Notes under the pieces: generated by a model
Databases searched by the model: none
What the model saw: only the letters and a program-made list of their open reading frames with translations
What the model was told of the DNA's origin: nothing
Translations under genes and position numbers: made by a program
Assembly: GCA_944325575.1 (NCBI GenBank)
Contig: CALVAR010000001.1
Span: 1 to 64,000 of the forward strand
Reading direction: 5' to 3'
DNA length: 64,000 bases
Origin: Candidatus Gastranaerophilales bacterium
Lineage (GTDB): Bacteria; Cyanobacteriota; Vampirovibrionia; Gastranaerophilales; Gastranaerophilaceae
Shown here: piece after piece, positions 8,567 through 24,346 of the stretch
Numbering within the stretch: the first letter of the stretch is position 1
How the letters are laid out: every line of letters begins with the position of its first letter

Positions 8567-8654
8567 AATCTGTCCGCTCTTTTTTATATCAAAACCATAT
8601 AAAGTTTACACTATGAGAACACTTATTACAATCTTTTATTCTTTTATAACTAAT

Positions 8655-8696
8655 AAAACAGAACACCTGTCAGATTATTTAAACAGGTGCTCTGTG
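8655..8696 (-). terminator. rho-independent terminator of the 159-aa gene
   Basis: On the minus strand AGAGCACCTGT pairs with ACAGGTGTTCTG and is followed by TTTTAT. It lies about 55 bases past the stop of the minus-strand gene that ends at 8750. Confidence 0.65.
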
Positions 8697-8749
8697 TTGA
8701 ATATTTGTATATGAATACAAACTGATTGCTGGTATAAATGGCTTAGTTA

Positions 8750-9229
8750 TTAATTCTGTCCGTTTATCTCTTGTTCCTTTTTATCTACTTCATCTTTTGT
8801 CATAGGATAAAGAGTCTGAGGAAGGTTTCCTTTATTGTCCAGCTGACATAAATAATAACAATCAAATTCTTTGTCATAAGATACATAATAATCACCAGCT
8901 TTTCCATAAAGTTTTAATTCTGTTAGACTATTCCATTTTTTCTCCCGCTCATTATTAACCTTGCCATCACCGGAATTAGAAGCAGGTTTTAAATTTGTAG
9001 AAGCAGGCTTCAAAGTAGCTCTTTTAGCAGTAGTGTTTACACTAACCATATTGTATCTGCCAAGAGCATTTAATCCTGAAGTCTGTATATTAAGTTTTAC
9101 CTCGGGCTTCTTTGTCTCTTTTTCAGCAGCCTTTGTTTCTTCCTGCTCATTCTTCTGATTGTTTACTGTAGCTCTCTGTAATTTTGTGTTTACTTGAAAA
9201 CTGCTTGTTCTAAAATTGATTCCTGACAT
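8750..9229 (-). CDS. hypothetical protein with N-terminal SFQ motif (159 aa)
   Basis: The N-terminus MSGINFRTSSFQV resembles the short SFxx N-termini of several other proteins here. Residues 20-45 are highly charged (Glu/Lys) and 60-95 are Ser/Thr/Asn-rich. The C-terminal 55 residues look folded, with YYVSYDKEFDCYYLCQLD at about 111-128, rich in aromatics. No signal peptide or membrane segment. AAGGAG precedes the start. Unknown family; probably lineage-specific. Confidence 0.6.
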   Translation of the reverse strand: MSGINFRTSSFQVNTKLQRATVNNQKNEQEETKAAEKETKKPEVKLNIQTSGLNALGRYNMVSVNTTAKRATLKPASTNLKPASNSGDGKVNNEREKKWNSLTELKLYGKAGDYYVSYDKEFDCYYLCQLDNKGNLPQTLYPMTKDEVDKKEQEINGQN

Positions 9230-9400
9230 ACACTATATCTCCTTTTTTATGTTAACAGTATCTTTATCGTGTTTTTTTTTTTTTCTTTAGGAAATATAAG
9301 GAACAATTTACATTTTGTTACATACTATGTATGTATAAAGTATATACAAATAAGTCGATATTCCCTCTGAGAGCGGTTAAATTTGTTAAATTAAGGTAAT

Positions 9401-9757
9401 AAAAGAAAACAAGCGGACGACGGGACTCGCAACGGCAATCTAGGCGAGGAACGAGCCGTAGAGAGCCGGAGTGCTGGCGATTTGCGGAGCAAATCGAACA
9501 CGTAAACCGCAGATGTAGCAAACTTGTTTTGCGTACAGATGCGTGGGAGAGGCAAAAAACAATGAAAAGAAAACAAGCGGACGACGGGACTCGCAACGGC
9601 AATCTAGGCGAGGAACGAGCCGTAGAGAGCCGGAGTGCTGGCGATTTGCGGAGCAAATCGAACACGTAAACCGCAGATGTAGCAAACTTGTTTTGCGTAC
9701 AGATGCGAGGGAGAGGCAAAAAACAATGAAAAGAAAACAAGCGGACGACGGGACTCG
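9401..9757. repeat. 164-bp tandem repeat carrying tRNA-Gly 3' ends
   Basis: Two direct copies, 9401-9564 and 9565-9728, have a 164-base period and at least one visible difference (T at 9544, A at 9708). A third partial copy is the 3' part of the genuine tRNA-Gly (9729-9757). Each copy starts with an A-rich lead, then the same 17 bases that form the tRNA-Gly 3' end (9413-9429, 9577-9593, 9741-9757). The rest is GC-rich and includes the hairpin CGATTTGC/GCAAATCG. On the tRNA strand these lie immediately downstream of the tRNA. Open frames here are repeat artefacts. Confidence 0.9.
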
Positions 9758-9811
9758 AACCCGCGGCGTCAACCTTGGGAAGGTTGCATTCTACCACTGA
9801 ATTACATCCGC
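9740..9811 (-). tRNA. tRNA-Gly (CCC)
   Basis: On the minus strand the molecule begins GCGGATG and ends CGTCCGC, forming a 7-bp acceptor stem with one G-U-type pair. The D arm contains TTCAGTGGTAGAA; the anticodon arm is CAACC-TTCCCAA-GGTTG, giving anticodon CCC; the T arm is GCGGG-TTCGAGT-CCCG(T). CCA is not encoded, in contrast to the other two tRNAs here. The 3' end is duplicated twice downstream. Confidence 0.9.
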
Positions 9812-9934
9812 AATTTATATATTTATTTTATCACTTAATTTTTAATGTTAACTATTTATTTTAATCTCGCATGTTGAGTATATTGTTTTTTGTTTTACTA
9901 TATGAATATACACTAGCTAAATTATGGTTTTAAT

Positions 9935-10183
9935 ATGCGTGTACAAAATGTTAGTTTTACACAAAGTTTTGTTTGTGCAAAAAATTCTAAAGTTAACTCA
10001 AATAAGTTGTCTATACAGCCGGCTGCTCAAACTGCCTTAGGGTGGTTCGCTTTTGGTGTAGGGCTTGATTTTGTAGGCCGTAAATGCAGTATTTTTAAAT
10101 CTCCTGCTAAGAATTCTTTATTTATAAATAGTGTATTAGCATTTATGGCCGGCAGTTATACATTTTTTAAAGCAAGAAAATAA
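9935..10183 (+). CDS. small hypothetical protein (82 aa), possible membrane segment
   Basis: Begins MRVQNVSFTQSF, with the SFxx pattern shared by several neighbours. Residues 31-47 (ALGWFAFGVGLDFVG) and 63-78 (INSVLAFMAGSYTFF) are hydrophobic and could be two short membrane passes. There is no clear Shine-Dalgarno, so the start is less certain. It lies alone between tRNA-Gly and a secreted-protein gene. Unknown function; a lineage-specific small membrane protein is the best description. Confidence 0.5.
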   Translation: MRVQNVSFTQSFVCAKNSKVNSNKLSIQPAAQTALGWFAFGVGLDFVGRKCSIFKSPAKNSLFINSVLAFMAGSYTFFKARK

Positions 10184-10198
10184 ATTTGATATATATCT

Positions 10199-10741
10199 TT
10201 AAAATGTTATTTTTAAATTATCTTTAAAAATGAATGTTACAGATTGTATTCTGTTTAAATCTAATCCCATAGCCAGAATTCTTAGAGATTCTCCTTTTTT
10301 TATTGTGTAATTCTTTGGAAAATCGTACAAGTAGGGATTCTTTTCTATATCTCCTTTAACGCCGTTGTATTCTCCAACCAGCGGTATATATGTTTGCCAA
10401 TATTTAAGATATCTTGCATTTACACGTGTCCAGTGGCTTTTTCTCGTAATATTCTTATTTGCGTGATACTCTGAGTCAACTCCTTTCAACAATAAATCCT
10501 GGTCTGTATTGTTGGTAATTATATATTCATAAGGATTACCTTCCTTGTATGAATATTCGAATTTGTACATGTTTTTTTCTATTTTTATACCGTCTTTGTC
10601 ATAAACATCACTATGTATCTTTTGAAGTTGTATTGATTTGTCGTATTTTTTGTAGGGATTTGTATTAAACCAGGTATCTACGGCAGCAAAAGCGGGTGCT
10701 GCTAATCCAATAAGCATGATTATGATAAGTATATTTTTCAT
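10199..10741 (-). CDS. secreted hypothetical protein (180 aa)
   Basis: The N-terminus MKNILIIIMLIGLAAPAFAA is a clear Sec signal peptide, with cleavage likely after AFA (about residue 19). The mature part is rich in Tyr, Asn and Lys, with beta-type segments (YEYIITNNTDQDLLLKGVD at about 72-90) resembling an exported beta-sandwich domain. AAAAGGAG precedes the start. No recognised family. It is monocistronic, probably periplasmic or surface-exposed. Confidence 0.7.
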   Translation of the reverse strand: MKNILIIIMLIGLAAPAFAAVDTWFNTNPYKKYDKSIQLQKIHSDVYDKDGIKIEKNMYKFEYSYKEGNPYEYIITNNTDQDLLLKGVDSEYHANKNITRKSHWTRVNARYLKYWQTYIPLVGEYNGVKGDIEKNPYLYDFPKNYTIKKGESLRILAMGLDLNRIQSVTFIFKDNLKITF

Positions 10742-10879
10742 TTTTTTCTCCTTTTTCTTTTTTATTATTTTTACATGTGTATTTAAAATCTGCTATATAA
10801 TAAAAAAATTTTTAACTAAACTTATCATTTTGTTCAAATTTATTTTAATATTTTGAATAGATTGCGTAAAACAGTTTTT

Positions 10880-10965
10880 AAGTGGTGCCACGTCTCACTC
10901 TGCCGAAATAAATGTGCCGGTGACACATTTATTGAGAGGTAACCAAGGGTTCGATTCCGAGGAAT
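10880..10965. repeat. tRNA-Phe end fragments around a stem-loop repeat
   Basis: Bases 10883-10896 repeat the 3' end of tRNA-Phe in the same orientation (TGGTGCCACGTCTC). Bases 10947-10961 carry its T-arm (GGTTCGATTCCGAG) in inverted orientation. Between them lies a dispersed stem-loop (10895-10938). The fragments sit downstream of the genuine tRNA-Phe and its terminator on the minus strand. Confidence 0.85.
10895..10938. repeat. dispersed stem-loop repeat, copy 2
   Basis: On the minus strand: CTCTCA, AATAAATGTG / CACATTTATT stem (10907-10916/10923-10932), then TCGGCAGAGTG. The flanks match copies 1 and 3; the stem sequence differs but remains paired. Confidence 0.65.
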
Positions 10966-10990
10966 AAAAAAACACCCGAAGGTGTTTTAA
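10966..10990 (-). terminator. terminator of tRNA-Phe
   Basis: AAAACACC (10969-10976) and GGTGTTTT (10981-10988) pair around loop CGAA; the A-run at 10966-10972 is the U-tract on the minus strand. Confidence 0.8.
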
Positions 10991-10994
10991 AAAG

Positions 10995-11070
10995 TGGTGC
11001 CACGTCTCGGAATCGAACCAAGGACACAGGGATTTTCAGTCCCTTGCTCTACCAACTGAGCTAACGTGGC
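10995..11070 (-). tRNA. tRNA-Phe (GAA)
   Basis: 76 bases with encoded CCA. The acceptor stem GCCACGT pairs with ACGTGGC. The anticodon arm carries CTGAAAA with anticodon GAA. The D arm contains GCTCAGTTGGTAGAGC and the T arm TTCGATT. Part of its 3' half is duplicated downstream at 10883-10961. Confidence 0.97.
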
Positions 11071-11226
11071 ATATAATATTCAATTTTTTAGAGTTGGTAG
11101 AGCAAGCTCTACTAATCTAATTAGATTTTATCTCTCAAACCGGAAAGTTAACCTGTTACTTAAGCATATCAAAAAAAGCTGCAGAGTCAATAATTTTTTT
11201 GTATTTATATATAACTAGCCTATTAA

Positions 11227-11255
11227 TTGACTTTTTGATAGAATTATCTTATACA
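11227..11255 (+). promoter_or_regulatory. sigma-70-type promoter of trxA
   Basis: TTGACT at 11227-11232 and TATACA at 11250-11255 are separated by 17 bases. This gives a 5' leader of about 28 bases containing the Shine-Dalgarno AAGGAGGAG (11272-11280). Confidence 0.65.
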
Positions 11256-11289
11256 TTATAGGATGTAATTTAAGGAGGAGATAGATATT

Positions 11290-11613
11290 ATGTCAAATGC
11301 TATGGATATTAATGATTCAACATTTGAACAGGAAGTTGTAAATTCATCAGAGCTTACTATAGTTGATTTTTGGGCGCCATGGTGCGGACCTTGCAGAAAA
11401 CTTGGACCTGTTTTGGATGAAGTAGCTCAAGAATATGAAGGCAAAGTAAAAATAGTAAAGCTGAATACCGATGAAAATCTTAAAACCGCTAAAGAATACT
11501 CTGTCAGCGGTTTGCCTACATTGCTTGTTTTTAAAGGCGGCAAAGCAGTAGAAAGACTTGTCGGCTTAATGCCCAAAACAACTATTGTTTCTAATATTGA
11601 AAAACATTTATAG
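11290..11613 (+). CDS. trxA: thioredoxin
   Basis: 107 residues, a classic single-domain thioredoxin, the cytoplasmic disulfide reductant. The active site WCGPC lies at residues 31-35 and the cis-proline is P76 in GLPTLLVF. Length and motif spacing match E. coli TrxA. A strong promoter, a strong Shine-Dalgarno and a terminator at 11627-11658 make it a well-defined monocistronic unit. It is a likely electron donor to the Bcp peroxiredoxin at 8108-8566. Confidence 0.97.
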   Translation: MSNAMDINDSTFEQEVVNSSELTIVDFWAPWCGPCRKLGPVLDEVAQEYEGKVKIVKLNTDENLKTAKEYSVSGLPTLLVFKGGKAVERLVGLMPKTTIVSNIEKHL

Positions 11614-11626
11614 GATATTTGAGAGA

Positions 11627-11658
11627 TAAAAAAGACCAACTTTAAGTTGGTCTTTTTT
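11627..11658 (+). terminator. terminator of trxA (bidirectional)
   Basis: AAAAGACCAACTT pairs with AAGTTGGTCTTTT around TA and is followed by a T-run. It may also serve the minus-strand gene that ends at 11658. Confidence 0.85.
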
Positions 11659-14432
11659 TATTTGTTATTTTGCTTTTGTTGAGCTTCATTCGGTGTTCTC
11701 TGTGAAAGAACTTTTTTGCCTGTCAGTCTCGACATAAATCTGAAGAATTTACCTTTTATGCCCGGGTCAGTAATATTATTGTATTCTTTATCGAGTATTT
11801 CTTTTCTGGACATTGGTGAGACAGGCATTCCTATGGCAGTTCTGTTTACATATTCTCCAACAAGCGTGGATGCAGTATTAACGGTTTGTGCTCCAAACAG
11901 GCTGGAATTGTACAAGCTTCTAAAAGTGTTGTTAAAGAGGTTTATAATCATTACATTAAAGAAGGTTCTTGATGTTTCTTGTACAAGTCTTTCTTTTGCT
12001 TTTGTAACAGCTTGCTCTTTGTTTTCACCGTTTGATTTTTGCATAACCATGTTGTGGTTATCTGTCATTAAGAACCAAAGTGTCGCTGCAGTTGATGTAT
12101 TTTTGGCAAGTGCTGACAAATCCGAATTGGAAATGCTCGACATTGTCGTTGTATTAAAGCCTTTATTGAACTGTTTGTTCATATAATCTGCAAAGTCATT
12201 TTTTGCGTAATCAATTTTTGCAATGCCTTTATGTTCACCAAATACTTTAGGCAACTTAATCATCGGCTCTTTAGTTATTCTGTCTATTGTTTTTGCAACA
12301 AGTTCTTGCTCTTTTATATATTCAGGAAGTTTAACTTCAGGTTTTATCCAGTTTGCAATGTACTTAGCAAAGTGTTTATATGGAAGGGTAATTGTACCCC
12401 AGATAAACTTAAATGGTTCTGTAACAAGATCTGCAAATTGTTTTGCACCGCTTATATCTCTCTTGCCCAAATTGATGAGCTCTGCATTAACTGAGTTCTC
12501 AACGAGATTTTTATATTTCTCCGCTGCTTCAGGATTTTTAGCCCTAAGCATTTTTATTGATTTTTCAAACAAGGATAGATTTTCTGCAGCATCATCAACT
12601 TTAAATCGGTTTTCAAATGTAAATTCATAATCTTTAGCTATTTTCTTAACAAGCTTTTTAGCCTTATTATAGTTATTTGTATCTACAATACCGTTTTTAT
12701 CAATGATTATTTCTTTAATTTGTCTTGCTTCATCAGATAAGTTATTATTCTCCATCAACTTAAATAAGTCATTTAAATTCTTAGTTATAATATCTTTTTT
12801 TCTGTTTTTAAGGAAGGCTTGAGCTTCATTGTATACGGGAATATCTTTAAAGTTCTTGTTCAATTTTGCATTTGCAATATGTTCAAACTTCTGTCCTAAT
12901 TCATTTAGTCCCGCTTCCTTTAACACCTGTGCAAATTCTCCGGACAGCGATTCTACCTTTTTGGTTTTTTGGTAGCGGTTTATTACCTGTTCAAAATATT
13001 CGCCTACAGTTGTGTCATATTCTTTAAGCTTGTTAATTATTCTCTGGTATTCATCTTTTGCCAGTGTGTAATCACGTCTTGTAATTGAATTAAATGCACT
13101 ATTATATTTTGCTGAAATGACTTTTAAATAGTCTCCGATTTTTGCACCATTTTGAAGTTTTATATTTTTTCCATGTTTAAGGGCAAAAGCAAGCACAATC
13201 GTTCCTACAAACCATTTAGCTATCGTTCCCGGCGAGAGCAAAGGTTTTGAGTCTGAAGAAATTACGGATTTTTTAGGAGAGTTCGCATCTGACATCTGAG
13301 CTAAAGGCATGTCGGAAGCTATTCCAAAACCCTGAAATACTTGAGAGCTTTTGAATGCCGGATTGGAGTTGTGCTTTATGTCATTGTTGGTTTCTTTTTC
13401 AGGTTGATAATCAGCAGGAAGTGTGCCTTCTTTCTTGTTCATTTCAATGGCTTCTTCCTTATTTATCATGTGAATCTTTTTGCCGTTTGATAATCTTGAA
13501 AATGCTTCAGTTATTAATACAGTTAAGGCTGTTACGCCAATGAATGTAGCTTTGCTCTTATTAATCCATTTAGACAGTGCACCCAGTGTAATAAGCTGCA
13601 GATATGCGTTTGATAATACACGTTTTGTTTCCTGATTGAAACGTAATTTTCTTTCCTTATCAGCTTTTTGCTGGTCATCATCACATATTCTTGAGAGGTT
13701 ATAAGCATCATTTGCAAGGAAAAATGCCGGAATAAACCCTGTAACTATTCTTGTCAGTGCTCTTTCATGTACTGCATTGTAATTTCCGGATTTTGGGTCA
13801 AACATTTTCAGTGCATTTGACATTAAGCCTGCTGATCTGATGTTATCTGCGTCATATTTATATTTTGATGCAGAATCCATATAGCCTATCAATGAATTAA
13901 CAATATCGGCATTATCAAGTGTGTCCATATGATTTTTTAAGATATTGCCTGAATGTTGTGCTGTTTTTTGGGCTGCACTGCTTTTACTGAAAAAAGATTT
14001 CTTTAGTGATGCCACAATGCGGAAAGGTATATCCGTTATAGGTGAAATAGCTGCATCAAATAACTGTTTTGTCCAGTTTTTTTCTTTTATTTTTACTTCC
14101 GAGCCGTCTGCTGTTTTTGTGATATATTTTTGTATTTCTTCCCAGCTGCTTGTATTTTCTTCTAACACTACTGGTGCTTTACCTATGTATTTTTTAAGAA
14201 AAGCAAGGCTGTCTCTTAGTCTGTATTCTTTGTTATTGTAAAGCGCGAGTGATTTTCTCAGCGTTGCCAAACCTTTAAAAGAAACGCCTCTAAAGGAAAT
14301 GTCATCTGATTCTCTCTTTAAAGGCGTTTCAACAAAATTATTATTTGAAAAGTGTTCTTTAGTCGCAAAAGCTTTTTTCTTGCGAATGTTCGGCTCTTTA
14401 TATAAAATGTTTGGTTTTTGATTAATTATCAT
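11658..14432 (-). CDS. large lineage-type protein with SFRG/SFKG motifs (924 aa)
   Basis: No recognised family. The N-terminal 45 residues are basic and polar, followed by SFRG (46-49) and SFKG (51-54), a doubled form of the motif seen singly in other proteins here. Several hydrophobic stretches are visible: RIVTGFIPAFFLAN (about 230-245), a pair around LQLITLGALSKW and FIGVTALTVLITEAF (about 275-310), KWFVGTIVLAFAL (about 408-420), and further ones near residues 790 and 835. A long charged helical region spans about 430-660. It therefore looks like a multi-pass or peripheral membrane protein with a large cytoplasmic segment. It stands alone between trxA and yajQ. Confidence 0.75.
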   Translation of the reverse strand: MIINQKPNILYKEPNIRKKKAFATKEHFSNNNFVETPLKRESDDISFRGVSFKGLATLRKSLALYNNKEYRLRDSLAFLKKYIGKAPVVLEENTSSWEEIQKYITKTADGSEVKIKEKNWTKQLFDAAISPITDIPFRIVASLKKSFFSKSSAAQKTAQHSGNILKNHMDTLDNADIVNSLIGYMDSASKYKYDADNIRSAGLMSNALKMFDPKSGNYNAVHERALTRIVTGFIPAFFLANDAYNLSRICDDDQQKADKERKLRFNQETKRVLSNAYLQLITLGALSKWINKSKATFIGVTALTVLITEAFSRLSNGKKIHMINKEEAIEMNKKEGTLPADYQPEKETNNDIKHNSNPAFKSSQVFQGFGIASDMPLAQMSDANSPKKSVISSDSKPLLSPGTIAKWFVGTIVLAFALKHGKNIKLQNGAKIGDYLKVISAKYNSAFNSITRRDYTLAKDEYQRIINKLKEYDTTVGEYFEQVINRYQKTKKVESLSGEFAQVLKEAGLNELGQKFEHIANAKLNKNFKDIPVYNEAQAFLKNRKKDIITKNLNDLFKLMENNNLSDEARQIKEIIIDKNGIVDTNNYNKAKKLVKKIAKDYEFTFENRFKVDDAAENLSLFEKSIKMLRAKNPEAAEKYKNLVENSVNAELINLGKRDISGAKQFADLVTEPFKFIWGTITLPYKHFAKYIANWIKPEVKLPEYIKEQELVAKTIDRITKEPMIKLPKVFGEHKGIAKIDYAKNDFADYMNKQFNKGFNTTTMSSISNSDLSALAKNTSTAATLWFLMTDNHNMVMQKSNGENKEQAVTKAKERLVQETSRTFFNVMIINLFNNTFRSLYNSSLFGAQTVNTASTLVGEYVNRTAIGMPVSPMSRKEILDKEYNNITDPGIKGKFFRFMSRLTGKKVLSQRTPNEAQQKQNNK

Positions 14433-14635
14433 TTTTTCCTGCCCATGTGTAATGTCTCATAAGCTATTTACTTTTGCAATAATTACACATAAAATTTTAA
14501 CTTTAATTAATATTAAATAGAAATCCTTACACTTCTATTGCTTTAATACTAATAAGAGTTTTTTTTTGCTAGTGCATGACAATAATGCAACATAAGTTAA
14601 CATATGTTGTGGGCAATGTAATGATAATGACAAAT

Positions 14636-15136
14636 CTACCTGTAATTTTGGAATTGTAGCGGTATGTCGTAAGAGTCTTCTTTTTCTTTTAAAAGTCTTA
14701 TTACATCCTGCAGGTCGTCTTTACTTTTGCCGGATACTCTTACCTGATCACCCTGGATAGAGGCTTGAACTTTTATTTTAGAAGCTTTTATATCAGCGAC
14801 TATTTTTTTACCAAGTTCTGTGCTCAATCCCTTTTTCAAATTAAACACCTGTCTTACATTTCCGCCGAGTGCATTTTCTATAGGCTGAGGATCCAGAATT
14901 TTTATGTTTATATTTCTCTTAACAAGTTTTGTCTGCAAAATATCCAGTATATTTCTCAACTTCATGTCATCGCTTGTTGTTATGGTAATTGCTTTGTCAG
15001 CTTCAAGATTTATATCAGAGTTAGTATTCTTTAAATCAAATCTTGAAGTCAATTCTCTTTTTGCTTGATCTACAGCATTTACCAACTCCTGTTTATCAAA
15101 TTCTGATACAACATCAAAACTGCATTCTTTTGCCAT
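14636..15136 (-). CDS. yajQ: YajQ family nucleotide-binding protein
   Basis: 166 residues, full length for the family (UPF0234/DUF520). The N-terminus ECSFDVVSEFDKQELVNAVD and C-terminal PLQFQNYR are hallmark sequences. YajQ proteins have two ferredoxin-like domains and bind nucleotides; some members bind cyclic di-GMP and modulate transcription. GGAGGAT precedes the start. It is monocistronic. Family membership is firm; the ligand in this organism is not shown. Confidence 0.95.
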   Translation of the reverse strand: MAKECSFDVVSEFDKQELVNAVDQAKRELTSRFDLKNTNSDINLEADKAITITTSDDMKLRNILDILQTKLVKRNINIKILDPQPIENALGGNVRQVFNLKKGLSTELGKKIVADIKASKIKVQASIQGDQVRVSGKSKDDLQDVIRLLKEKEDSYDIPLQFQNYR

Positions 15137-15199
15137 AATATCCTCCTGAACAATAAAACTGATAAGTCTTATTATATCAAAACAAGCAAAATCTGTCAG

Positions 15200-16015
15200 T
15201 TAGTCTAAAATTCTTACCGTAGAATGATTGCCTAAATTTCTGTTGAGCATATGTCCGCCATGTGTACCCATATAGTAGTCCTGTGAGCCTACACCATTAA
15301 TATACGGGTTGTATGGATCATATATAGGCGGAGTAAAGCCCGTTAATGACCCTGAGCCAAAGTTCCCGAAAACAACCCCAAGCAAGTTTTGAAGCATGCC
15401 GCTGACACCTCTGTTTATATTTGATCCGCTCCAGCTGCTATTAGGTGTATAGTATGGACTCATATTATTGTATTGCGGATATACGTTTTGGCTTTGAACA
15501 ATTTCGGGAAACGAGTTGTAATGTTTTGCTGCTGTTTTTACTGTATCAAATCTTTCCGAAAGATTTCCGCCTTGCATTGCTCCTAGCATTTCTTTTTCTA
15601 AACGTGTAATTCTTGAATCTGTATCATCATTGGGATAAGTACGCCCGAGTACCTTGGTCTCAAGTCTTGCAAGTTCTCGTGTTGATATATTGTACATTAC
15701 GCCGGGATCAATATTGGCCAATATATTGTCGACTCTTGTTGCAAGCGGCATCGAGTCAAAATTTCTTCGAAAAATTCTTTTTTCTATACGGCTTAACCTG
15801 TTATATATATTTTCTTTTTCGTATGTTTTTTTGAATAGATTAAATTCTATTTGCGTAATTTTGGGGTAATTTTCGTTGATTCCGGGTTCACTGTACGGCG
15901 CCGCCAGAGGCGCTATACTAAGCGGTTTAAAGGTCTTTACTTTATATGCGTTTGCCGGTAATGAAACAGCTGCTAATGATAGTAATAAAACAAACTGCAT
16001 AACATATTTACGCAT
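15200..16015 (-). CDS. secreted protein with RLxRLE repeats (271 aa)
   Basis: I start at 16015, where MRKYVMQFVLLLSLAAVSLPANA is a Sec signal peptide and AGAGGA lies eight bases upstream. The mature N-terminal half has repeated segments of the form RLSRIEKRIFRRNF, LARLETKVLGRTYPNDD and RITRLEKEMLG (about residues 75-150), each R-L-x-R-L/I-E followed by an aromatic/Gly and a Y-P-x-D loop, a repeat type seen in exported proteins of cyanobacteria and relatives. The C-terminal half is Gly/Asn/Ser/Tyr-rich and probably disordered. A cell-envelope role is inferred only from export. Confidence 0.7.
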   Translation of the reverse strand: MRKYVMQFVLLLSLAAVSLPANAYKVKTFKPLSIAPLAAPYSEPGINENYPKITQIEFNLFKKTYEKENIYNRLSRIEKRIFRRNFDSMPLATRVDNILANIDPGVMYNISTRELARLETKVLGRTYPNDDTDSRITRLEKEMLGAMQGGNLSERFDTVKTAAKHYNSFPEIVQSQNVYPQYNNMSPYYTPNSSWSGSNINRGVSGMLQNLLGVVFGNFGSGSLTGFTPPIYDPYNPYINGVGSQDYYMGTHGGHMLNRNLGNHSTVRILD

Positions 16016-16102
16016 AATAATATCCTCTGTCTTTTGCCTGAATATTTTAACAATATAGCTCATTGTTATTTGTTGCATTAGACAGACAAGTGCGTTTCGG
16101 GA

Positions 16103-16708
16103 TTATGTTGCATCTTTTAAAATATGAATAGTTATATCAAGCTGTTCTCTGAACAGTTCGATTTGTGCATTTATGCTGTTAGGACTGTATATCTGCCCTT
16201 CTCCCTGATATGTTAAGTATTTTAGGTAAACCTGAGACTCGCATCTTAGTGTTGCCAGCGTACGTGCTTCTGCAGCAATATTTTGAAGCTTTACGAATGA
16301 AATGTAGTATCTCTCAGGTCTGTTTGCGTATTTTTCAGCCATAAAGTCCGCATGATCTATTATTGAACTTGCTATTGCATTAAATTTTTGCACACTTCCG
16401 TTGTTATCTATACATTTTTTCATTTTTTCAAGCAGTGCAATAACGTCATTAAGATCATTTATATAAGGAGATGTCTTATCTCTTTTTAAAATAATATCAA
16501 TATACTGAGGGTTTTCTCTCGGCGCTTTTTTGTATTGAGGATTGCTGTAGGGACCGGAGGTATTAAATATAGGTTTGGTTTTCTGTGGAGTTGTCCTTAA
16601 TGTTTCAAACTGAGCATTTATATCAGGCAGGCTTCCTTTATATCCTGAGCCTGTACAGAATAATATTGTCAGTAAAAATATGGATAAACTTTTGAAAACC
16701 TTTTTCAT
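16103..16708 (-). CDS. secreted hypothetical protein (201 aa)
   Basis: The start at 16708 (MKKVFKSLSIFLLTILFCTG) gives a signal peptide. A longer frame would run into the divergent rarA promoter and start, so I rejected it. The Cys at residue 20 is not in a good lipobox. The mature protein is helical, with NDVIALLEKMKKCIDN at about 85-100 and ERYYISFVKLQNIAAEARTL at about 131-150. No family recognised. It is exported, and adjacent to another secreted protein, with only 87 bases between them, so the two may share a transcript. Confidence 0.65.
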   Translation of the reverse strand: MKKVFKSLSIFLLTILFCTGSGYKGSLPDINAQFETLRTTPQKTKPIFNTSGPYSNPQYKKAPRENPQYIDIILKRDKTSPYINDLNDVIALLEKMKKCIDNNGSVQKFNAIASSIIDHADFMAEKYANRPERYYISFVKLQNIAAEARTLATLRCESQVYLKYLTYQGEGQIYSPNSINAQIELFREQLDITIHILKDAT

Positions 16709-16747
16709 AGTAATAATTATAACTGAATTTTTTATGAAGTCATAATT

Positions 16748-16776
16748 TTGACTTTGCTCTATCAGGTGTTTATCAT
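16748..16776 (+). promoter_or_regulatory. promoter of rarA, leaderless arrangement
   Basis: TTGACT at 16748-16753 and TATCAT at 16771-16776, 17 bases apart. The ATG at 16783 is six bases after the -10 box and has no Shine-Dalgarno. Confidence 0.5.
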
Positions 16777-16782
16777 AATTGT

Positions 16783-18015
16783 ATGGATTTATTTGACTCA
16801 TACGCAAATCAAAATAAGCAAATACCCCTTGCGGAACAGCTGAGACCAAAGACCTTGGATGAGTTTTTGGGGCAAAATAATGTAGTGGGGCAAAATTCTG
16901 CTTTTATAAATCTTTTGCGCTCGGGACATTTGTTCTCCTGTATATTCTGGGGACCGCCCGGGTGCGGGAAAACTACACTTGCAAGACTTGTTGCTTCTAA
17001 TACTAACAGCTCTTTTATTGAATTGAGTGCGGTTAATTCAGGTATAAAGGATATAAAAGACTGTGTTGAAAAAGCTAAAGAAAATTTAAGATACAATAAA
17101 AAAACGATTATTTTTATTGATGAAATCCATAGATATTCAAAAACACAACAGGATGCTTTGCTTCCGTATCTGGAAAACGGCACGTTTTATCTTATAGGCT
17201 CTACTACGGAAAATCCATCTTTTCAGGTTGTTCCTGCTCTGATATCAAGGGTTCAGGTCCTTATGCTCCAGCCGATTGACGATGACAATCTATATTCTAT
17301 TGTTGAAAAAGGTTTTAAATATCTGTCTGATAAACACGGTCCTATTGTCCTTAAACAGCGAGTTATCGATTTTATTGTAAAATATGCCGGCGGAGATGCA
17401 AGACTTGCTTTAAATCTTGTTGAAAATGCATATTATGCGGCTGATTTAATTGATAACAAACGTAATCTTACTTTAGAGCTCTTAGAAACTCTTGCACAGG
17501 AAAAAAGAATCAAGTACTCAAGACAGGAGCATTACGATTGTGCGTCTGCTTTTCAAAAAAGTTTGAGAGGAAGCGATAAAAATGCTGCAATTTACTGGCT
17601 GGCTAAAATGATTGCAGGCGGTGAAGATCCTCGCTTTATTGCAAGACGTTTAATTGTTTGTGCCGCAGAAGATGTTGGGCTTGCTGATCCTAATGCACTA
17701 AATATTGCTGTTAATGCATATAAGGCCTCGGAGCTCCTCGGCCTTCCTGAAGCAAGAATACCCCTTGCACTGGCTGTTGCTTATGTCTCGGATGCTCCTA
17801 AATCAAATGAGGCTATTTGTGCTGTGGATGAAGCGTTATCTGATATCGGAAGCGGTTTGGATTTTCCTCCTCCGATGCATTTACGTGATGCTCATTATAA
17901 GGATGCAAAAAAATACGGCTTTGGCAAAGGGTATGTATACACGCATGATAATCCTGATTATGTACAGCAGTTTATGCCTGATGAGTTAAAAGATAAAAAA
18001 TATTTTAATCATTAA
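16783..18015 (+). CDS. rarA: replication-associated recombination protein A (AAA ATPase)
   Basis: 410 residues, typical of RarA/MgsA, an ATPase related to clamp loaders that acts at stalled replication forks. The N-terminus PLAEQLRPKTLDEFLGQ is the family signature. Walker A GPPGCGKT is at 57-64, Walker B FIDEIH at 111-116 and the sensor GSTTENPSF near 149-157. The C-terminal oligomerisation domain contains EDPRFIARRLIVCAAEDVGLA. The start is leaderless by position of the promoter. A strong terminator follows. Confidence 0.96.
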   Translation: MDLFDSYANQNKQIPLAEQLRPKTLDEFLGQNNVVGQNSAFINLLRSGHLFSCIFWGPPGCGKTTLARLVASNTNSSFIELSAVNSGIKDIKDCVEKAKENLRYNKKTIIFIDEIHRYSKTQQDALLPYLENGTFYLIGSTTENPSFQVVPALISRVQVLMLQPIDDDNLYSIVEKGFKYLSDKHGPIVLKQRVIDFIVKYAGGDARLALNLVENAYYAADLIDNKRNLTLELLETLAQEKRIKYSRQEHYDCASAFQKSLRGSDKNAAIYWLAKMIAGGEDPRFIARRLIVCAAEDVGLADPNALNIAVNAYKASELLGLPEARIPLALAVAYVSDAPKSNEAICAVDEALSDIGSGLDFPPPMHLRDAHYKDAKKYGFGKGYVYTHDNPDYVQQFMPDELKDKKYFNH

Positions 18016-18018
18016 AAC

Positions 18019-18049
18019 GAAAAACCGGATTCAATGAATCCGGTTTTTG
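18019..18049. terminator. terminator of rarA (bidirectional)
   Basis: A 13-bp stem AAAACCGGATTCA / TGAATCCGGTTTT with T-run on both strands, between convergent genes. Confidence 0.85.
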
Positions 18050-18081
18050 ATTGTGTAAATTTTTTATATCCCTTATATCGT

Positions 18082-18621
18082 TTATGCGAACTTCGGTGCG
18101 GAACTTTCGATTTGTTTTTCTTCCGCTTTTTCGACCGCCTTGAGTTCTTCTTGTGCTGCGGCAAGTTGGGTTTCCAACGACTTCCTTTGCAGTTCTATCT
18201 GATTTTCCATATCTTTTATCTGCTGCAGCTTTGTCTGGTTTACAGTTTCCATTGCTTGGTTCATTACCTGCAATTGCATACCTAAGCCCGTGGTGAAGAA
18301 GTTTGCACCTCCGCCCAGGCATGTACCAATCATTGACTTTAATCCGGCCTCAATTTCTGAATTTTTGAAATCACCGTTCGTACTTTGCAATTTTTGTATC
18401 AATGCATAACTTACAGCATTTTGCTGCATTGTCATGCCCATTTGGAATATATTACCGATGTTGCTAAACAGATTTTTCATGCTAGCCATAGAACGTTCCA
18501 TATTAGCCGCGTTGTTGGCTAAGGTCTGTTGCTGCTGGCTCAACTGCATTATCCTAAAGTTTAGCTGGTTAACGCGGTTGGTCAACATCAATTTTCGTGC
18601 TGTGAAAATTGCGTAGCCCAT
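18082..18621 (-). CDS. hypothetical coiled-coil protein (179 aa)
   Basis: No signal peptide. Residues 15-60 are Gln/Asn/Met-rich and helical, residues 100-118 contain a Gly-rich hydrophobic patch (IGTCLGGGANFFTTGLG), and residues 130-170 are a strong coiled coil (KDMENQIELQRKSLETQL and continuing). GAGAGGA precedes the start. The pattern of helical segments resembles secreted translocator-like or filament-like proteins only in a general way. No family recognised. It is monocistronic. Confidence 0.65.
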   Translation of the reverse strand: MGYAIFTARKLMLTNRVNQLNFRIMQLSQQQQTLANNAANMERSMASMKNLFSNIGNIFQMGMTMQQNAVSYALIQKLQSTNGDFKNSEIEAGLKSMIGTCLGGGANFFTTGLGMQLQVMNQAMETVNQTKLQQIKDMENQIELQRKSLETQLAAAQEELKAVEKAEEKQIESSAPKFA

Positions 18622-18745
18622 TGTTTGGTCGTCCTCTCGTGTTTGTAATTATTCCTCGTATATAAATAAAAACATTTAGTATTCAATAATTGCCTAAATA
18701 ATTTATTTTTTGTAAAGATTTTGTAACAATTGTAAATTTTATATA

Positions 18746-19150
18746 TTAATTAATATTGCTGCAAGGCTTCATCTGAAGCATATCTTGGGGTTCTATTGTC
18801 CAAATTCTTATATCGTATTTTTTTGCAACTTCTTGCAGCCTCAAAAGATATTTTTGGTCCTTTGGGGGATTTTCCATTATTAAAACAATGCCGGCTTTTT
18901 TATTTGTGCATAGTGCATAGTAGAGGGATTGACCTACTGATTCCGCCCATTTATTTGCAAAGTCAAATTCAATGGCATAATCTTCTGTAAGGCAATCAAC
19001 TCTCGTTTTATCGCTTAAAATGTATTCTGTCGTACCATTATTAGCTTTACACCATTTGTTCTGATATTCTTTTTCCAAATACTGGTGTGCAGCAAAGCAT
19101 TGTGATGTTGTTAATATAAATGTTAATAGAAGCAAAATTGATTTATGCAT
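18746..19150 (-). CDS. secreted nuclease-fold-like protein (134 aa)
   Basis: I start at 19150, where MHKSILLLLTFILTTSQCFA is a signal peptide; the ATG overlaps the stop of the upstream Cys-rich gene (TAATG), showing translational coupling. The mature domain has DCLTEDYAIEFDFANKWAES at about 53-72, followed by VGQSLYYAL and a beta strand GIVLIM. A D...E-x-D...K arrangement then GQ-x-L-x-Y resembles small PD-(D/E)XK-type restriction-endonuclease-fold proteins. The fold assignment is inference from this motif alone; catalytic activity is not shown. Confidence 0.65.
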   Translation of the reverse strand: MHKSILLLLTFILTTSQCFAAHQYLEKEYQNKWCKANNGTTEYILSDKTRVDCLTEDYAIEFDFANKWAESVGQSLYYALCTNKKAGIVLIMENPPKDQKYLLRLQEVAKKYDIRIWTIEPQDMLQMKPCSNIN

Positions 19151-19338
19151 TAATTGCACCCGCATGTCGGACTGTATGATCCGTCGCAGCATACAGCTCT
19201 CCCGCCGGAACAACCGCAGACTCCGCCATGGTGTGAGCAGCAGCCTCTTCTGTAATCAGTATTCAGATTATTTACAATTGCGTAGCAAGCACAGGAACAA
19301 AAGAGAAACAAAAACAAACCAATCAATATTTTTTTCAT
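19150..19338 (-). CDS. secreted Cys-rich micro-protein (62 aa)
   Basis: A signal peptide (MKKILIGLFLFLFCSCACYA) is followed by a mature part of about 40 residues with eight Cys and two His. The pattern RGCCSHHGGVCGCSGG, then CCDGSYSPTCGC, is a conserved Cys-rich motif that I recall as a stand-alone exported protein or as a C-terminal tail on nuclease-like proteins in diverse bacteria. The Cys spacing suggests metal binding or disulfides. It is coupled to the secreted nuclease-like gene. No experimental role is known to me. Confidence 0.8.
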   Translation of the reverse strand: MKKILIGLFLFLFCSCACYAIVNNLNTDYRRGCCSHHGGVCGCSGGRAVCCDGSYSPTCGCN

Positions 19339-19537
19339 AACGACCTCAATTTTTTAATTAAGGTTATTATAATGATTTACAAAAAGTTGATATTACGTTT
19401 ATGTAAATATGCGTTTTTTATGCTATGTATGGATTTTGTTATAACTTTAGCCTTAATTCAAATTTATAAACGGACACAGAATGGACACACTAAAAAACAA
19501 AAAAGCTAGAAACTCAATTGTTTCAAGGTTTATGTGG

Positions 19538-19632
19538 TGGTGGGCGTTGAGAAGAGCTCTTGTTCCAAAGCTGACTAAATGTCAGGTTTGGAATGAGAAG
19601 AGAACTCCGTCGGGAGTGAGATGCCTCTCAAC
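19538..19632. repeat. tRNA-Val end fragments in a fold-back
   Basis: Bases 19538-19552 repeat the 3' end of tRNA-Val directly (TGGTGGGCGTTGAGA). Bases 19609-19632 carry its T-arm/acceptor region inverted (GTCGGGAGT...GCCTCTCAAC). Between them is a hairpin TTCCAAA/TTTGGAA (19563-19569/19587-19593) with inner CTGAC/GTCAG. The arrangement is the same as downstream of tRNA-Phe. Confidence 0.85.
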
Positions 19633-19658
19633 AAAAAAAGACTACCGAAGTAGTCCTT
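19633..19658 (-). terminator. terminator of tRNA-Val
   Basis: GACTAC (19640-19645) and GTAGTC (19650-19655) pair around CGAA; the A-run before 19640 is the minus-strand U-tract. Confidence 0.8.
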
Positions 19659-19663
19659 TTTAA

Positions 19664-19739
19664 TGGTGGGCGTTGAGAGGCTCGAACTCCCGACATCTTC
19701 CTTGTAAGGGAAGCGCTCTACCAACTGAGCTAAACGCCC
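19664..19739 (-). tRNA. tRNA-Val (TAC)
   Basis: 76 bases with encoded CCA. Acceptor stem GGGCGTT/AACGCCC; D arm GCTCAGTTGGTAGAGC; anticodon arm CTTCC-CTTACAA-GGAAG, anticodon TAC; T arm GGGAG-TTCGAGC-CTCTC. Both of its ends are duplicated nearby: the 3' end at 19538-19632 and the 5' end in a tandem array at 19729-20017. Confidence 0.97.
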
Positions 19740-20017
19740 GCACCAGCTATTAAATTTTCATGCGCTTCCTTTGGGAAGCTTTATCTGTATACGTGAGGTA
19801 ACCCTCACTCGGCAACTGAGCTAAACGCCCGCACCGACTATTAAATTTTCATGCGCTTCCTTCGGGAAGCTTTATTTGTAAACGTGAGGTAACCCTCACT
19901 AGGCAACTGAGCTAAACGCCCGCACCAGCTATTAAATTTTCATGCGCTTCCTTTGGGAAGCTTTATCTGTATACGTGAGGTAACCCTCACTCGGCAACTG
20001 AGCTAAACGCCCGCACC
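19729..20017. repeat. 91-bp triple tandem repeat carrying the tRNA-Val 5' end
   Basis: Three direct copies start at 19729, 19820 and 19911, with a partial fourth at 20002; the period is exactly 91. On the minus strand each copy has the first 18 bases of tRNA-Val (GGGCGTTTAGCTCAGTTG), then a hairpin GTGAGG/CCTCAC, then GCTTCCCAAAGGAAGC, which resembles the tRNA anticodon stem with its loop removed. Copies 1 and 3 appear identical; copy 2 differs at several bases. The array lies immediately 5' of the tRNA in its direction of transcription. It has no spacers, so it is not a CRISPR. Confidence 0.95.
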
Positions 20018-20119
20018 CTTCATTATCTTGTCAAATGAGCTAAAAAACTGTGCCATGTTTGACTTGTGCTTTAGCCGTATAACTATATTACTAAATAAAT
20101 ATACTCTGTCAATATTTTG

Positions 20120-21535
20120 TTATTTTTTTGAGAAAAATCCCAGTATTCTATCCAAAAGTCCCTGCTCTTCTATCATTTCACCGTTAGCAAGAAGGTCGAC
20201 TTTTTTTCTGACTTCTTCTTTTTCGTCAGAATTCGGCGCAAATTTTAGATATTTTTGATAATAGTCAATTGCCTCATCTATGCGTCTGGATTCTTCAGAA
20301 TGTTTTGCAAGACGTAAAAGTGTTTCATAATCTTTTGGATTTATCTCCGCCAGAGCAAAGAGGTATTCGATTACCTTGTCCTCGTATCCCTGTTCTTCAT
20401 AAAATTTAACCAGTCTTTTTAATGTCGCAACGTCATCTTTTTCAATTGCCACAAGTTTTTCGCAAAATTCTGCACATGCAAAATGGTCATTGATAGATGA
20501 ATATAAATTTATTAGCTCTTTGATGACTTCCGGTTCTTTAGGATTGGCATTATATGCATTTAAATACTCATCAAGTGCCAGTTCGTAATTATTCTTTTTA
20601 ATATAGTATTTACCCCAGTTGAAATATGCATTGTAGTCATCATTTTGTTTTTCATACACAAGTGCAAGCATTTGGTACGGAAGCGGGTTGTCCGGATTCA
20701 TTTTTTCAAATGTATCAATCCATTTTACAGCATTTTCATTGTCATCAATATTATAGTAATATTCAGCCATTAGTGCACTGTAGCTTATATCCTGCTTATC
20801 TTTATCGGAAAGAGTTTGAAGTGCTTTGTAGGCTTCATCGTTTTTATTCTGCATAAGCATTGCTTTAATTTTATTAAATATGCTTACTGCATATTTTTCA
20901 GCGTTTTCGTAATCACCGAGAGCAAGATAAACTTTGCATAAAAATTCTTTCACTGCCTCACTTTCCGGATATTCGTTTATTGCTCTTTGGAGCATATCCA
21001 GTGCGGCATGTTTATCTTCTGCATAATAGAGTCCTGCTAGTGAAAGATATACATTTTCATTGTGGTCATAATCCAGTATTTTTAAATATTCGTCTATTGC
21101 TTGCATTGGCTTATTGAGGATTTCATAAGTCTGTGCAAGCAAATATCTTGCAGAAATTATTTCTTTTTCTTCTGTTGTATTATTAATAGCTTTTTTGTAA
21201 TCATCTGTTGCTTGTGCTAGCCTGCTTTCCAGAGTTTTTAGCTTTGCACGTGTCATATAGTATTGATATTTATCATCATGAAAATACAAATCAAGAAGTT
21301 GATTGTAAGAAATAGGATCTTCCGGCTTTAGTGCCATAAAATGTTTCCAGTATTCAATGGCTTCGTCATTATGCTGAAGCATCTGTGCTGAAACTGCAAG
21401 CTTTTGCAATACATCCGTATCATTTTTATCTAGCTCGTATGCATATTTATAGCATTCATAAGCTTGCTCAAATTTATCTTCTTCTTCAAATTGTTGTGCT
21501 TTTATCAATGCACCTGCAACAGTCTTATTTGTCAT
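20120..21535 (-). CDS. TPR repeat protein (471 aa)
   Basis: Soluble protein made of consecutive 34-residue tetratricopeptide repeats from about residue 15 to 440, recognisable by A-x-x-x-Y at helix ends (KAQQFEEEDKFEQAYECYKY; AEYYYNIDDNENAVKWIDTF; ALAEINPKDYETLLRLAKHS). The C-terminus (EEQGLLDRILGFFSKK) is an amphipathic tail that could contact the membrane. AAGGGA precedes the start. TPR proteins are scaffolds for protein-protein contacts; the partner is unknown. It is one of four TPR proteins in the window. Confidence 0.85.
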   Translation of the reverse strand: MTNKTVAGALIKAQQFEEEDKFEQAYECYKYAYELDKNDTDVLQKLAVSAQMLQHNDEAIEYWKHFMALKPEDPISYNQLLDLYFHDDKYQYYMTRAKLKTLESRLAQATDDYKKAINNTTEEKEIISARYLLAQTYEILNKPMQAIDEYLKILDYDHNENVYLSLAGLYYAEDKHAALDMLQRAINEYPESEAVKEFLCKVYLALGDYENAEKYAVSIFNKIKAMLMQNKNDEAYKALQTLSDKDKQDISYSALMAEYYYNIDDNENAVKWIDTFEKMNPDNPLPYQMLALVYEKQNDDYNAYFNWGKYYIKKNNYELALDEYLNAYNANPKEPEVIKELINLYSSINDHFACAEFCEKLVAIEKDDVATLKRLVKFYEEQGYEDKVIEYLFALAEINPKDYETLLRLAKHSEESRRIDEAIDYYQKYLKFAPNSDEKEEVRKKVDLLANGEMIEEQGLLDRILGFFSKK

Positions 21536-21641
21536 GGAATATCCCTTCGCTATTATTTTTTCTGATTATACAAAAGATACCAATCCGAAACAAGAACCGG
21601 AGATTTAATTTGCAGGTTTAATATTTATAGTTCTTAATTGG

Positions 21642-21650
21642 TGATAATAT
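21642..21650 (+). promoter_or_regulatory. extended -10 promoter directly before uvrB
   Basis: TGATAATAT lies six bases before the ATG at 21657. There is no Shine-Dalgarno, so a leaderless uvrB mRNA is likely. No LexA-type operator is evident to me. Confidence 0.4.
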
Positions 21651-21656
21651 ATTCTT

Positions 21657-23651
21657 ATGGAAAGAAAGTTTCAAATTGTATCACCTCATAAGCCTGCAGG
21701 AGATCAGCCCAAAGCAATAGACGCTCTTGTGGAAGGTCTGCAATCGGGCTGTGATGCACAGACATTGCTTGGCATCACAGGGTCGGGAAAAACTTTTACA
21801 ATAGCAAACGTAATAGAACGCATTCAAAAGCCTACACTGGTTATTGCTCATAATAAAACTCTTGCAGCACAGCTTTACAATGAGTTTAGAGAACTTTTTC
21901 CGAATAATGCTGTAGAATATTTCATAAGCTATTATGATTATTATCAGCCTGAAGCATATATACCGAGAACAGACACCTTTATAGAAAAGTCTGCAACAAT
22001 CAACGATGAAATAGACAGACTGCGTCACAATACAACAAGAAGTCTTTATACAAGAAATGATGTAATTGTAATTGCTTCTGTCAGCTGTATTTATGGCTTA
22101 GGGTCGCCGGAAAGTTATTATAAAGGTTCTGTAACACTAAAAGTCGGACAGCAGATGGAAAGAGATGAGCTATTGCATCATCTGGTTGCTGCTCAGTACA
22201 CAAGAAATGACCTTGAATTGGACAGAACAAATTTCAGAGCAAGAGGCGACTTTGTAGAAGTTATGCCTTCTTACGAAAAAGTTATTACAAGAGTAAGTTT
22301 TTTCGGTGATGAAATAGAAAAAATCACAAGAATTGATAACGTTACAGGTGAAATTCTGGAAACTCCGGATGAAGTTGTATTATTCCCTGCAGTTCACTAT
22401 TTGTCTGATGAAGATGATAAAGAAGAAACTATAAGGCTCATAAGAGAAGAATTAAAAGTAAGACTCGGTGAATTATATGCTCAGAATAAGCTTGTAGAAG
22501 CGCAGCGTCTGGAACAGCGTGTAAAATATGACATAGAAATGATTAAGGAAATGGGTTATTGTTCGGGAATTGAAAATTATTCCAGAATTATTGAAAGACG
22601 CGCTCCGGGAACCCCGCCTAAAACTCTTATAGATTATTTTAAGGGTGATTTTCTTCTTGTAATAGATGAGTCACATGTAACAATACCCCAATTGAAAGGT
22701 ATGTGCAGAGGTGATGCTGCCAGAAAAGATGTTTTGATTGATTACGGTTTTAGGCTTCCCTGTGCAAAAGATAACAGACCTTTAACAGACGAAGAATTTT
22801 GGGCAAGAGTACATCAGAAAATTTTCATTTCCGCTACACCTGCTGAATTTGAACGCAGTATATCGGATCAGATTGTGGAACAAATTATAAGACCGACAGG
22901 TCTTGTTGATCCGGAAATATCTGTCAGACCTACGGAAAATCAAGTTGATGATTTAATTGCCGAAATACAGAAAATTACCGAGAAAAATGAAAGAGTCCTT
23001 ATTACAACTCTTACCAAAAGAATGGCTGAGGACTTAACGGAATATATGAATCAGCTGGGTGTAAGGGTTAGATATTTGCACAGTGAAATTCAATCTCTGG
23101 AACGTGTGGAAATATTGAGGGACTTACGTCTGGGTGCATTTGATGTTCTTGTCGGGGTTAATCTTTTGAGAGAAGGTTTGGATATTCCGGAAGTATCCCT
23201 TGTAGCTATTATGGATGCTGATAAAGAAGGCTTTTTGCGTTCTGAAACAAGTTTGATTCAGACTATAGGACGTGCGGCAAGAAATTCTACCGGCAGGGTA
23301 ATTATGTATGCTGATAAGATTACTGACAGTATGGATGCTGCCATATCAGAAACAAACAGAAGACGTCAGATTCAAATGGCATACAATAAAGAACATCATA
23401 TCATCCCAAAAACAATTAAAAAGCCTGTTGAAAACAATCTTCTTCAGCTTGTATCCAGCTACAGAAATCTTGAAGATATTGTTGCGGAAGAGATGGTTGA
23501 GATGAATCTCAGTGTGAAAGATATACCAAAGCTTATTCAAAAGCTTGAAAAGGATATGCATTCTGCTGCTAAGGTTCTTGATTTTGAAAGAGCTGCGCAA
23601 ATAAGAGATCAGCTGAAGAAATTGAGGGAAATGGTAAAACAAAAGGGCTAA
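21657..23651 (+). CDS. uvrB: excinuclease ABC subunit B
   Basis: 664 residues, full length. UvrB verifies DNA damage handed over by UvrA and loads UvrC in nucleotide excision repair. Walker A GITGSGKT lies at 39-46, the damage-probing beta-hairpin [12 protein letters not shown] at about 92-103, the DEAH-like VIDESH near 338-343, helicase motif [11 protein letters not shown] near 542-550, and the C-terminal UVR domain ([15 protein letters not shown]... [14 protein letters not shown]) at about 625-660. It converges with, and overlaps by four bases, a minus-strand membrane protein gene. Confidence 0.98.
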
Positions 23652-24346
23652 TAATAGTTGTTTTTACTTTCGATATCAAAATGTAATTGCCCCCAGTAAT
23701 CTGACAAAAACGCAATATTCAGGGTTGTAAAGAATACAGCCGCATATTTGAATATCGGGCCTATGTCAAAGAATGAATAAATCAGGTATAGCGTGGGGGC
23801 AACTACAAAAAGGGAATATAACGCCACTAAAAGTAGGCTGACTATTGTAAAGACCAGAACATCTGCTAATCCTGACATTATTGATGAAACGTTTAAGCCG
23901 TCTTTTATATTATATTTACCCGAAAAATTTATTAGTGAAGTTACAAGTATAGACAGTATAAAAAACCTTATAAGCCAAATGGCTATTAATTGCGGCACAC
24001 CTTCAAAATTAAAAAGTCCGACCACAAAGTTTACAACAAAATATCCTATTATCAGATACGGAATAGCAAGTGAAAAGGCCTTTGTTGCAACAGAAAAAAA
24101 TTGCACCATATTAAATGTCGGAAGAGAACGGATTCTCTGGTTAATACGATTGCTTATTATTATACAGCAGAAACCAAGATATATATAAAATACAACAAGG
24201 TACATCATAAAGTTTACTATATTGAATGAATCGGATTGCACTGTAAGATTGTATATAAGATAAATCAGATAGCTGAATATACCCAGCTTTAGCAGGGCAT
24301 AATTATCCTGATATACTGATCTTATTGAATCAACTATTGACGCCAT
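23648..24346 (-). CDS. multi-pass membrane protein (232 aa)
   Basis: Five to six hydrophobic segments are visible: about residues 17-33, 42-67, 89-112, 121-142, 158-184 and 193-212. The layout (short N-terminus, pairs of helices, small loops) resembles DUF4013-type or glycerophosphoryl-diester-phosphodiesterase-associated membrane domains, but I cannot assign it. No catalytic motif is visible. It is transcribed alone, convergent with uvrB. Confidence 0.7.

Follow-up and report, generated by a model that had tools for sequence, protein, structure and literature searches.

Tandem units copying the start of tRNA-Val(TAC) and carrying an antisense arm precede the gene in a Gastranaerophilales genome: a candidate competitor of pre-tRNA folding

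The repeats of the tRNA 3' end that lie behind Escherichia coli tyrT are an old oddity for which, to our knowledge, no role has been agreed. The tyrTV repeat is annotated as the rttR/RtT element, and the Rfam model RF00391 finds its matches in E. coli; the repeats of argVYZQ are presumably members of the same family. At both loci, a copied tRNA 3' end of 18-19 nt is combined with an adjacent antisense piece and with hairpins, the antisense beside the copied end measuring 10 nt in tyrTV (L299) and being only short in argVYZQ (L343). Integrative elements that encode tyrosine recombinases and use tRNA genes as attachment sites duplicate the tRNA end while keeping the gene intact. Small palindromic hairpin repeats are dispersed in the genomes of cyanobacteria, a sister lineage of the organism considered here, but we know of none that copies an adjacent tRNA gene. 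We likewise know of no described 5' version of RtT-type repeats, and no description of tRNA-end repeats on the 5' side was found in the open-access literature.

In the 64,000-nucleotide stretch analysed here (the window), from a Candidatus Gastranaerophilales genome (G000), the tRNA-Val(TAC) gene is preceded on the minus strand by three 91-bp units (19740-20012; Table 1), which abut the gene without any gap. Each unit runs from a sense copy of tRNA-Val(TAC) nt 1-18 (S5) through hairpin I, GTATACAGATAAA, a second hairpin with its antisense extension, and an A/T spacer to GCTGGTGC. Hairpin I takes the position of the D-loop, while the 3' arm of the second hairpin runs on into an exact antisense of tRNA-Val nt 24-31 (A5). 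The units lack the 3' half that a cloverleaf needs, and only the real tRNA is detected at the locus; a search of the window at Rfam gathering thresholds returned three tRNAs only and no RtT element. The original prediction, made from the letters of the window, had described three 91-bp repeats that open like the 5' half of tRNA-Val, and nt 1-18 indeed recur in each. Both hairpins are as it described them, except that the second reaches into the antisense. Its additional partial copy has a double answer: the 3.3 copies given by the repeat finder include the 5' end of the tRNA itself, but a decayed remnant does sit upstream of unit 1. Downstream of the gene, a mirror 3' cassette is closed by a sense copy of the tRNA-Val 3' end (19552-19538).

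Table 1. Positions in the window of the features of the tRNA-Val(TAC) locus, and locations of the dispersed palindrome.
Feature	Position	Strand	Remarks
Predicted promoter, TTGACA-N16-TAATAT	20085..20112	-	upstream of the array; promoter-like sequence similarly placed in relatives
Decayed partial unit (TTTTTTAGCTCATTTGAC...GGGTGC)	20013..20047	-	read from the sequence; weak 18-nt repeat match
Unit 1, 91 bp	19922..20012	-	
Unit 2, 91 bp	19831..19921	-	93% identical
Unit 3, 91 bp	19740..19830	-	identical to unit 1
S5 of unit 3	19813..19830	-	sense copy of tRNA-Val nt 1-18
Hairpin I of unit 3	19793..19808	-	GTGAGG-GTTA-CCTCAC; D-loop position
Second hairpin of unit 3	19764..19779	-	GCTTCC-CAAA-GGAAGC; anticodon-stem-like, without the anticodon
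A5 of unit 3	19762..19769	-	GGAAGCGC; antisense to nt 24-31 of tRNA-Val; changes together with the tRNA in relatives
boxA-like A/T spacer	19748..19760	-	TGAAAATTTAATA; enriched in tRNA leaders; motif shared with 16S rRNA leaders of relatives
tRNA-Val(TAC)	19664..19739	-	
Intrinsic terminator-like hairpin	19633..19655	-	GACTACTTCGGTAGTC then TTTTTTT; seen in the sequence; hairpin listed on the + strand
Mirror 3' cassette	19538..19632	-	T-arm antisense pieces GTTGAGAGGC and ACTCCCGAC; hairpin; then TCTCAACGCCCACCA
Palindrome CTCTGCCGA-stem-GAGAGGTA	10898-10941; L077-L104		

The Val array is one case of a genome-wide pattern. An exact copy of at least 10 nt of the tRNA's own 5' end occurs within 300 nt upstream of 13 of the 37 tRNA genes of this genome, and the own 3' end is copied within 300 nt downstream of 12 of the 37. 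With flanks exchanged among tRNAs, 0.02 (5') and 0.00 (3') such cases are expected, which excludes chance. Both flanks are likewise enriched in antisense copies of the own tRNA (all four measures reach the lowest p that the permutation test can give, ~5e-5; a repeat run agrees), and genome-wide the leader antisense fits its own tRNA more than other tRNAs. The 5' form is laid out as S5, hairpin, antisense, spacer and tRNA, and the 3' form is its mirror image, with tRNA, terminator, antisense, hairpin and 3'-end copy in that order. The original prediction saw a contrast between the 5' placement at tRNA-Val and a 3' array at tRNA-Gly; instead, the latter is the mirror form of the same cassette class. 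A species of the same genus (G005) carries 5' copies at 10/38 and 3' copies at 9/38 of its tRNA genes, a genome of another family of the order (G037) at 4/30 and 11/30, and one of a third family (G030) at 1/43 on either side, while two outgroup genomes of the phylum have none on either side (0/36 and 0/33). The G000 assembly breaks at several such loci, with contig ends beside tRNA genes, and copy numbers elsewhere are lower bounds.

The tRNA-Gly(CCC) array (9401-9757) consists of 164-bp units, each of which closes with the tRNA 3' end. At tRNA-Phe (10880-11140), the leader contains a hairpin with a 15-nt antisense to the gene's own D-arm (CTTGCTCTACCAACT), and a 3' cassette in the trailer includes the CTCTGCCGA palindrome. 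Positions 41913-42079 contain tandem repeats, of 24 and 60 bp, that look in-frame (TATCAGCGTCCGCAACAGGGCGGT). Several contigs stop at or near arrays (L245, L254 and the G000 ends beside tRNA genes), and MAG assemblies probably under-count the units.

Among relatives with a DNA match, the Val unit lies upstream of tRNA-Val(TAC) in 13 of 13, although in L014, whose contig ends at that point, the A5 hairpin is all that is present. The comparison of the locus that the original prediction had proposed, in which absence from relatives would have spoken against it, thus finds the units present. A covariance model of the unit matches 82 of 383 genomes, in 23 of the 52 genera of the order, and the loci fetched from the matching genomes carry 47 tRNA-Val(TAC) and seven tRNA-Ile(GAT). 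Contigs that carry the Val unit and have a name are mostly Candidatus Gastranaerophilales MAGs. Copy number ranges from 0 to 3 or more, several genomes of the same genus being without the unit. The promoter leader ...ATACAAACGGAA runs straight into the tRNA in G005 and into a unit in the sister L013. The pair looks like an empty and an occupied site, with the unit cleanly lost or gained and S5 standing in the original position of the tRNA. In 12 genomes of the genus, identity is 82% in the non-tRNA part of the unit, compared with 74% at the end of the upstream ORF, 59% in the promoter region, 30% in the leader ahead of the units and 31% in the DNA past the terminator. Gene conversion from the tRNA cannot explain such conservation outside the tRNA-derived part, which is therefore constrained or actively maintained. 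Hairpin I occurs as 14 different perfect stems among 36 Val leaders. Within the Val units of the genus, no informative covariation was found, as the helices hardly vary.

The antisense arm, by contrast, can be followed beyond the genus, where the anticodon stem of tRNA-Val varies and the leader antisense varies with it (GGGAAGCGC/GCGCTTCCC, GGGAGGCGC/GCGCCTCCC, GGGAGACGC/GCGTCTCCC); in some other genera the antisense is shifted to the D-arm, e.g. GACGCTCTACCAACTGA. In an alignment of 25 loci, picked because their antisense is of the anticodon-stem type, 98.2% of cells are paired in the leader-tRNA helix; the cells are not independent events. Two of its pairs have changed on both sides, from AU to GC in seven sequences and from GC to AU in two. 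The covariation score of this helix was reached by none of 500 shuffles and exceeds those of all slid versions.

The promoter-like site of Table 1 is the only one on this strand, and the array lies between it and tRNA-Val. Chance alone would give about one such site in the stretch, and so the weight of the promoter evidence rests on the relatives, where promoter-like sequence, units, tRNA and terminator follow one another in this order. The array and the gene being contiguous, there is no room for a promoter between them. The sole predicted promoter upstream, the lack of a gap and the like arrangement in relatives support the original suggestion that the units are part of the tRNA-Val precursor, and the array is probably transcribed with the gene. 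The A/T spacer of the unit is similar to a motif that relatives carry in their 16S rRNA leaders (CTTTGAAAATTGAATAACC, CCTTGAAAACTGAATAACTG); relatives served for the comparison because the assembly of this genome lacks a 16S rRNA gene. On the strength of this sequence likeness the spacer may be called boxA-like. The motif is enriched just upstream of tRNAs: it is present in 10/37 and 12/38 leaders, where chance predicts 0.012 per 60 nt. A TTGAAAAnTGAATA motif of tRNA leaders also appears in the 16S rRNA leaders of relatives (L211, L212, L213). The likeness would be to the boxA antitermination sites (NusB/S10) of rRNA operons, although the published gamma-proteobacterial consensus, GYTCTTTAANA, differs in form from the spacer here (PMC5725501).

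If the units are transcribed with the gene, they are predicted to compete with the folding of the real tRNA. With its own unit in front, the native acceptor stem has a mean probability of 0.08 in ViennaRNA calculations. The mean is 0.50 when the leader is exchanged for those of other isoacceptors (47 cases), and leaders free of units give 0.55 (105 cases). These values disregard co-transcriptional order, kinetics, processing, tertiary contacts and tRNA modification. The alternative fold is predicted to pair the sense copy of the unit with the 3' acceptor strand of the tRNA, the antisense holding the real 5' half. For the Val-tac gene of this genome the shift is smaller (0.22 vs 0.36), and the interaction energy was not more negative than that of the swapped control. 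Units without the acceptor/T-arm half are no obvious substrates of RNase P alone. The decoy role put forward in the original prediction is plausible, but RNase P as its target fits worse than the capture of the tRNA's own halves, since a unit has neither 3' half nor T-arm; its anatomy suits competition for the tRNA's own 3' half together with antisense capture of its own 5' half. Pairing of a unit with the tRNA 3' end could, however, create an RNase P substrate.

The preferred reading, to which we give a probability of roughly 0.4, is that the Val array is a duplicated tRNA end with an inserted hairpin, retained as a transcribed cis competitor of pre-tRNA folding. The first part of the tRNA gene would have been duplicated together with a short leader, a hairpin-forming insert would have taken the D-loop position in the outer copy, and this copy would have acquired an antisense strand to the tRNA 5' half; tandem copies may then have grown and shrunk through recombination between direct repeats. 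In the pre-tRNA leader, the units would compete in cis with the real 5' half: the sense copy would pair with the 3' acceptor strand of the tRNA while the antisense captured the real 5' half, and the precursor could then adopt either the native fold or a decoy of similar or greater stability. The native fold would gain from an early cut in the A/T spacer or from folding during transcription; failing these, maturation might be slowed or prevented. It is a tentative extension, held with somewhat less confidence, that the clade controls the maturation of many tRNAs in this way, through leader cassettes whose competing 5' half-tRNA and antisense set a native against a decoy fold around a shared 3' half. 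Counting against such competition, the units are dispensable, as the genomes of the same genus without them show. The palindrome module flips with the side of the tRNA on which it lies, and the 3' cassettes stand past terminators; these two features point to a DNA-level origin and perhaps to a DNA-level role.

The hairpins themselves bear on this point. RNA helices tolerate G-U pairs, and at one setting the terminators of these tRNAs contain G-U and A-C mismatches in a ratio of 45:6, compared with 55:68 in leader hairpins and 121:110 in 3' cassettes; at a stricter setting, the leader hairpins are almost free of G-U. Neither leader hairpins nor 3' cassettes thus show an excess of G-U over A-C, though terminators of the same genomes do; for the hairpins, this test gives no sign of selection at the RNA level. 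The palindrome is present in 28 copies in the genome with differing stem sequences (reversed-pattern control, 0), and it lies in opposite orientations in the cassettes at the two gene ends as well as within non-tRNA repeats. A large dispersed non-tRNA repeat that hosts it starts with TGTCTGAGGCGGCCTCGCTTG and often ends near CAGTTGACAATATGAAAT (L079, L081, L083-L085, L089, L091-L102). The missing G-U excess, the mirror symmetry and the dispersed palindrome together indicate that the cassettes arise, and are perhaps also maintained, through a process at the DNA level. A DNA-level origin is likely, and for the 5' form an RNA-level function in addition is somewhat more probable than its absence. 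A rival reading, which appears rather unlikely, would make leader transcription incidental: a hairpin-based mobile or recombination process would insert at the D-loop or T-loop of tRNA genes, carrying or copying the tRNA end and leaving the gene intact, as do elements that attack tRNA genes. Near-perfect complementarity (919 Watson-Crick pairs, 5 G-U, 1 A-C and 7 other) and presence or absence among species, including the apparent empty site, also speak for it. However, no recombinase linked to the cassettes was found, the Val cassette retains its own hairpin and spacer at one locus in many genera, as if inherited and constrained, and S5 and A5 are matched locus by locus, which is not the mark of one spreading sequence.

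Two further readings are less probable still. Hairpin units repeated with A/T spacers in a pre-tRNA leader might be processed into stable small RNAs, i.e. products of an external transcribed spacer with a function in trans, such as that of a sponge for tRNA-binding proteins or RNAs. In E. coli, the annotation of 3'ETS-leuZ is that of a regulatory RNA derived from a tRNA transcript. A role of this kind is improbable here, as units tailored to their own tRNA fit a role in cis better. That the array is a neutral relic, left by the duplication of tRNAs in tandem or by integrative elements since excised, is very improbable, although copy numbers from none to several, and direct repeats with the tRNA that ease gain and loss, are what such a history would leave. 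An A5 that covaries with the tRNA, in a unit whose non-tRNA part is more conserved than the neighbouring protein gene, argues that the unit is no relic, as does its spread over 23 genera. The recombination relic considered in the original prediction accordingly finds no support, the non-tRNA part being 82% identical in a genus where neighbouring non-coding DNA reaches ~30%; the same conservation led to the rejection of an integrative-element relic.

Compared with known systems, the locus resembles most closely the RtT repeats. Its elements are those of the RtT-type architecture, a sense copy of a tRNA end with antisense and hairpin beside the gene, and its 3' cassettes are laid out like the tyrTV and argVYZQ repeats. 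The RtT covariance model (RF00391) has no match above cut-off in this genome (best E 8.9), and the cassettes are of the RtT kind by layout, not by sequence. Whereas the repeats at the E. coli loci examined lie on the 3' side only and in two operons, those described here occur at both ends, at about one tRNA gene in three, the 5' form lying in the leader; relative to those loci, the 5' placement is new. Integrative elements at tRNA genes are alike in duplicating the tRNA end and preserving the gene, but the present units are 90-160 bp long, gene-free and tandem, carry matched antisense arms and also occur at the 5' end. Unlike the ends of a tRNA-borne attachment site, the copies at tRNA-Val lie 91 bp apart with nothing between them, and no integrase was recognised by eye among the ORFs of 8000-24000. 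The likeness to the hairpin repeats of cyanobacteria is that of small dispersed palindromic modules. As the same layout recurs at both ends of about one third of the tRNA genes in a single genome and elsewhere across its order, with species that have or lack the units and changes that track the tRNA, there is a natural comparative set in which the origin and function of tRNA-end repeats can be tested. Units that act in the precursor would represent a new way of controlling tRNA supply; if they act at the DNA level, they would point to a process, so far unrecognised, that copies tRNA ends.
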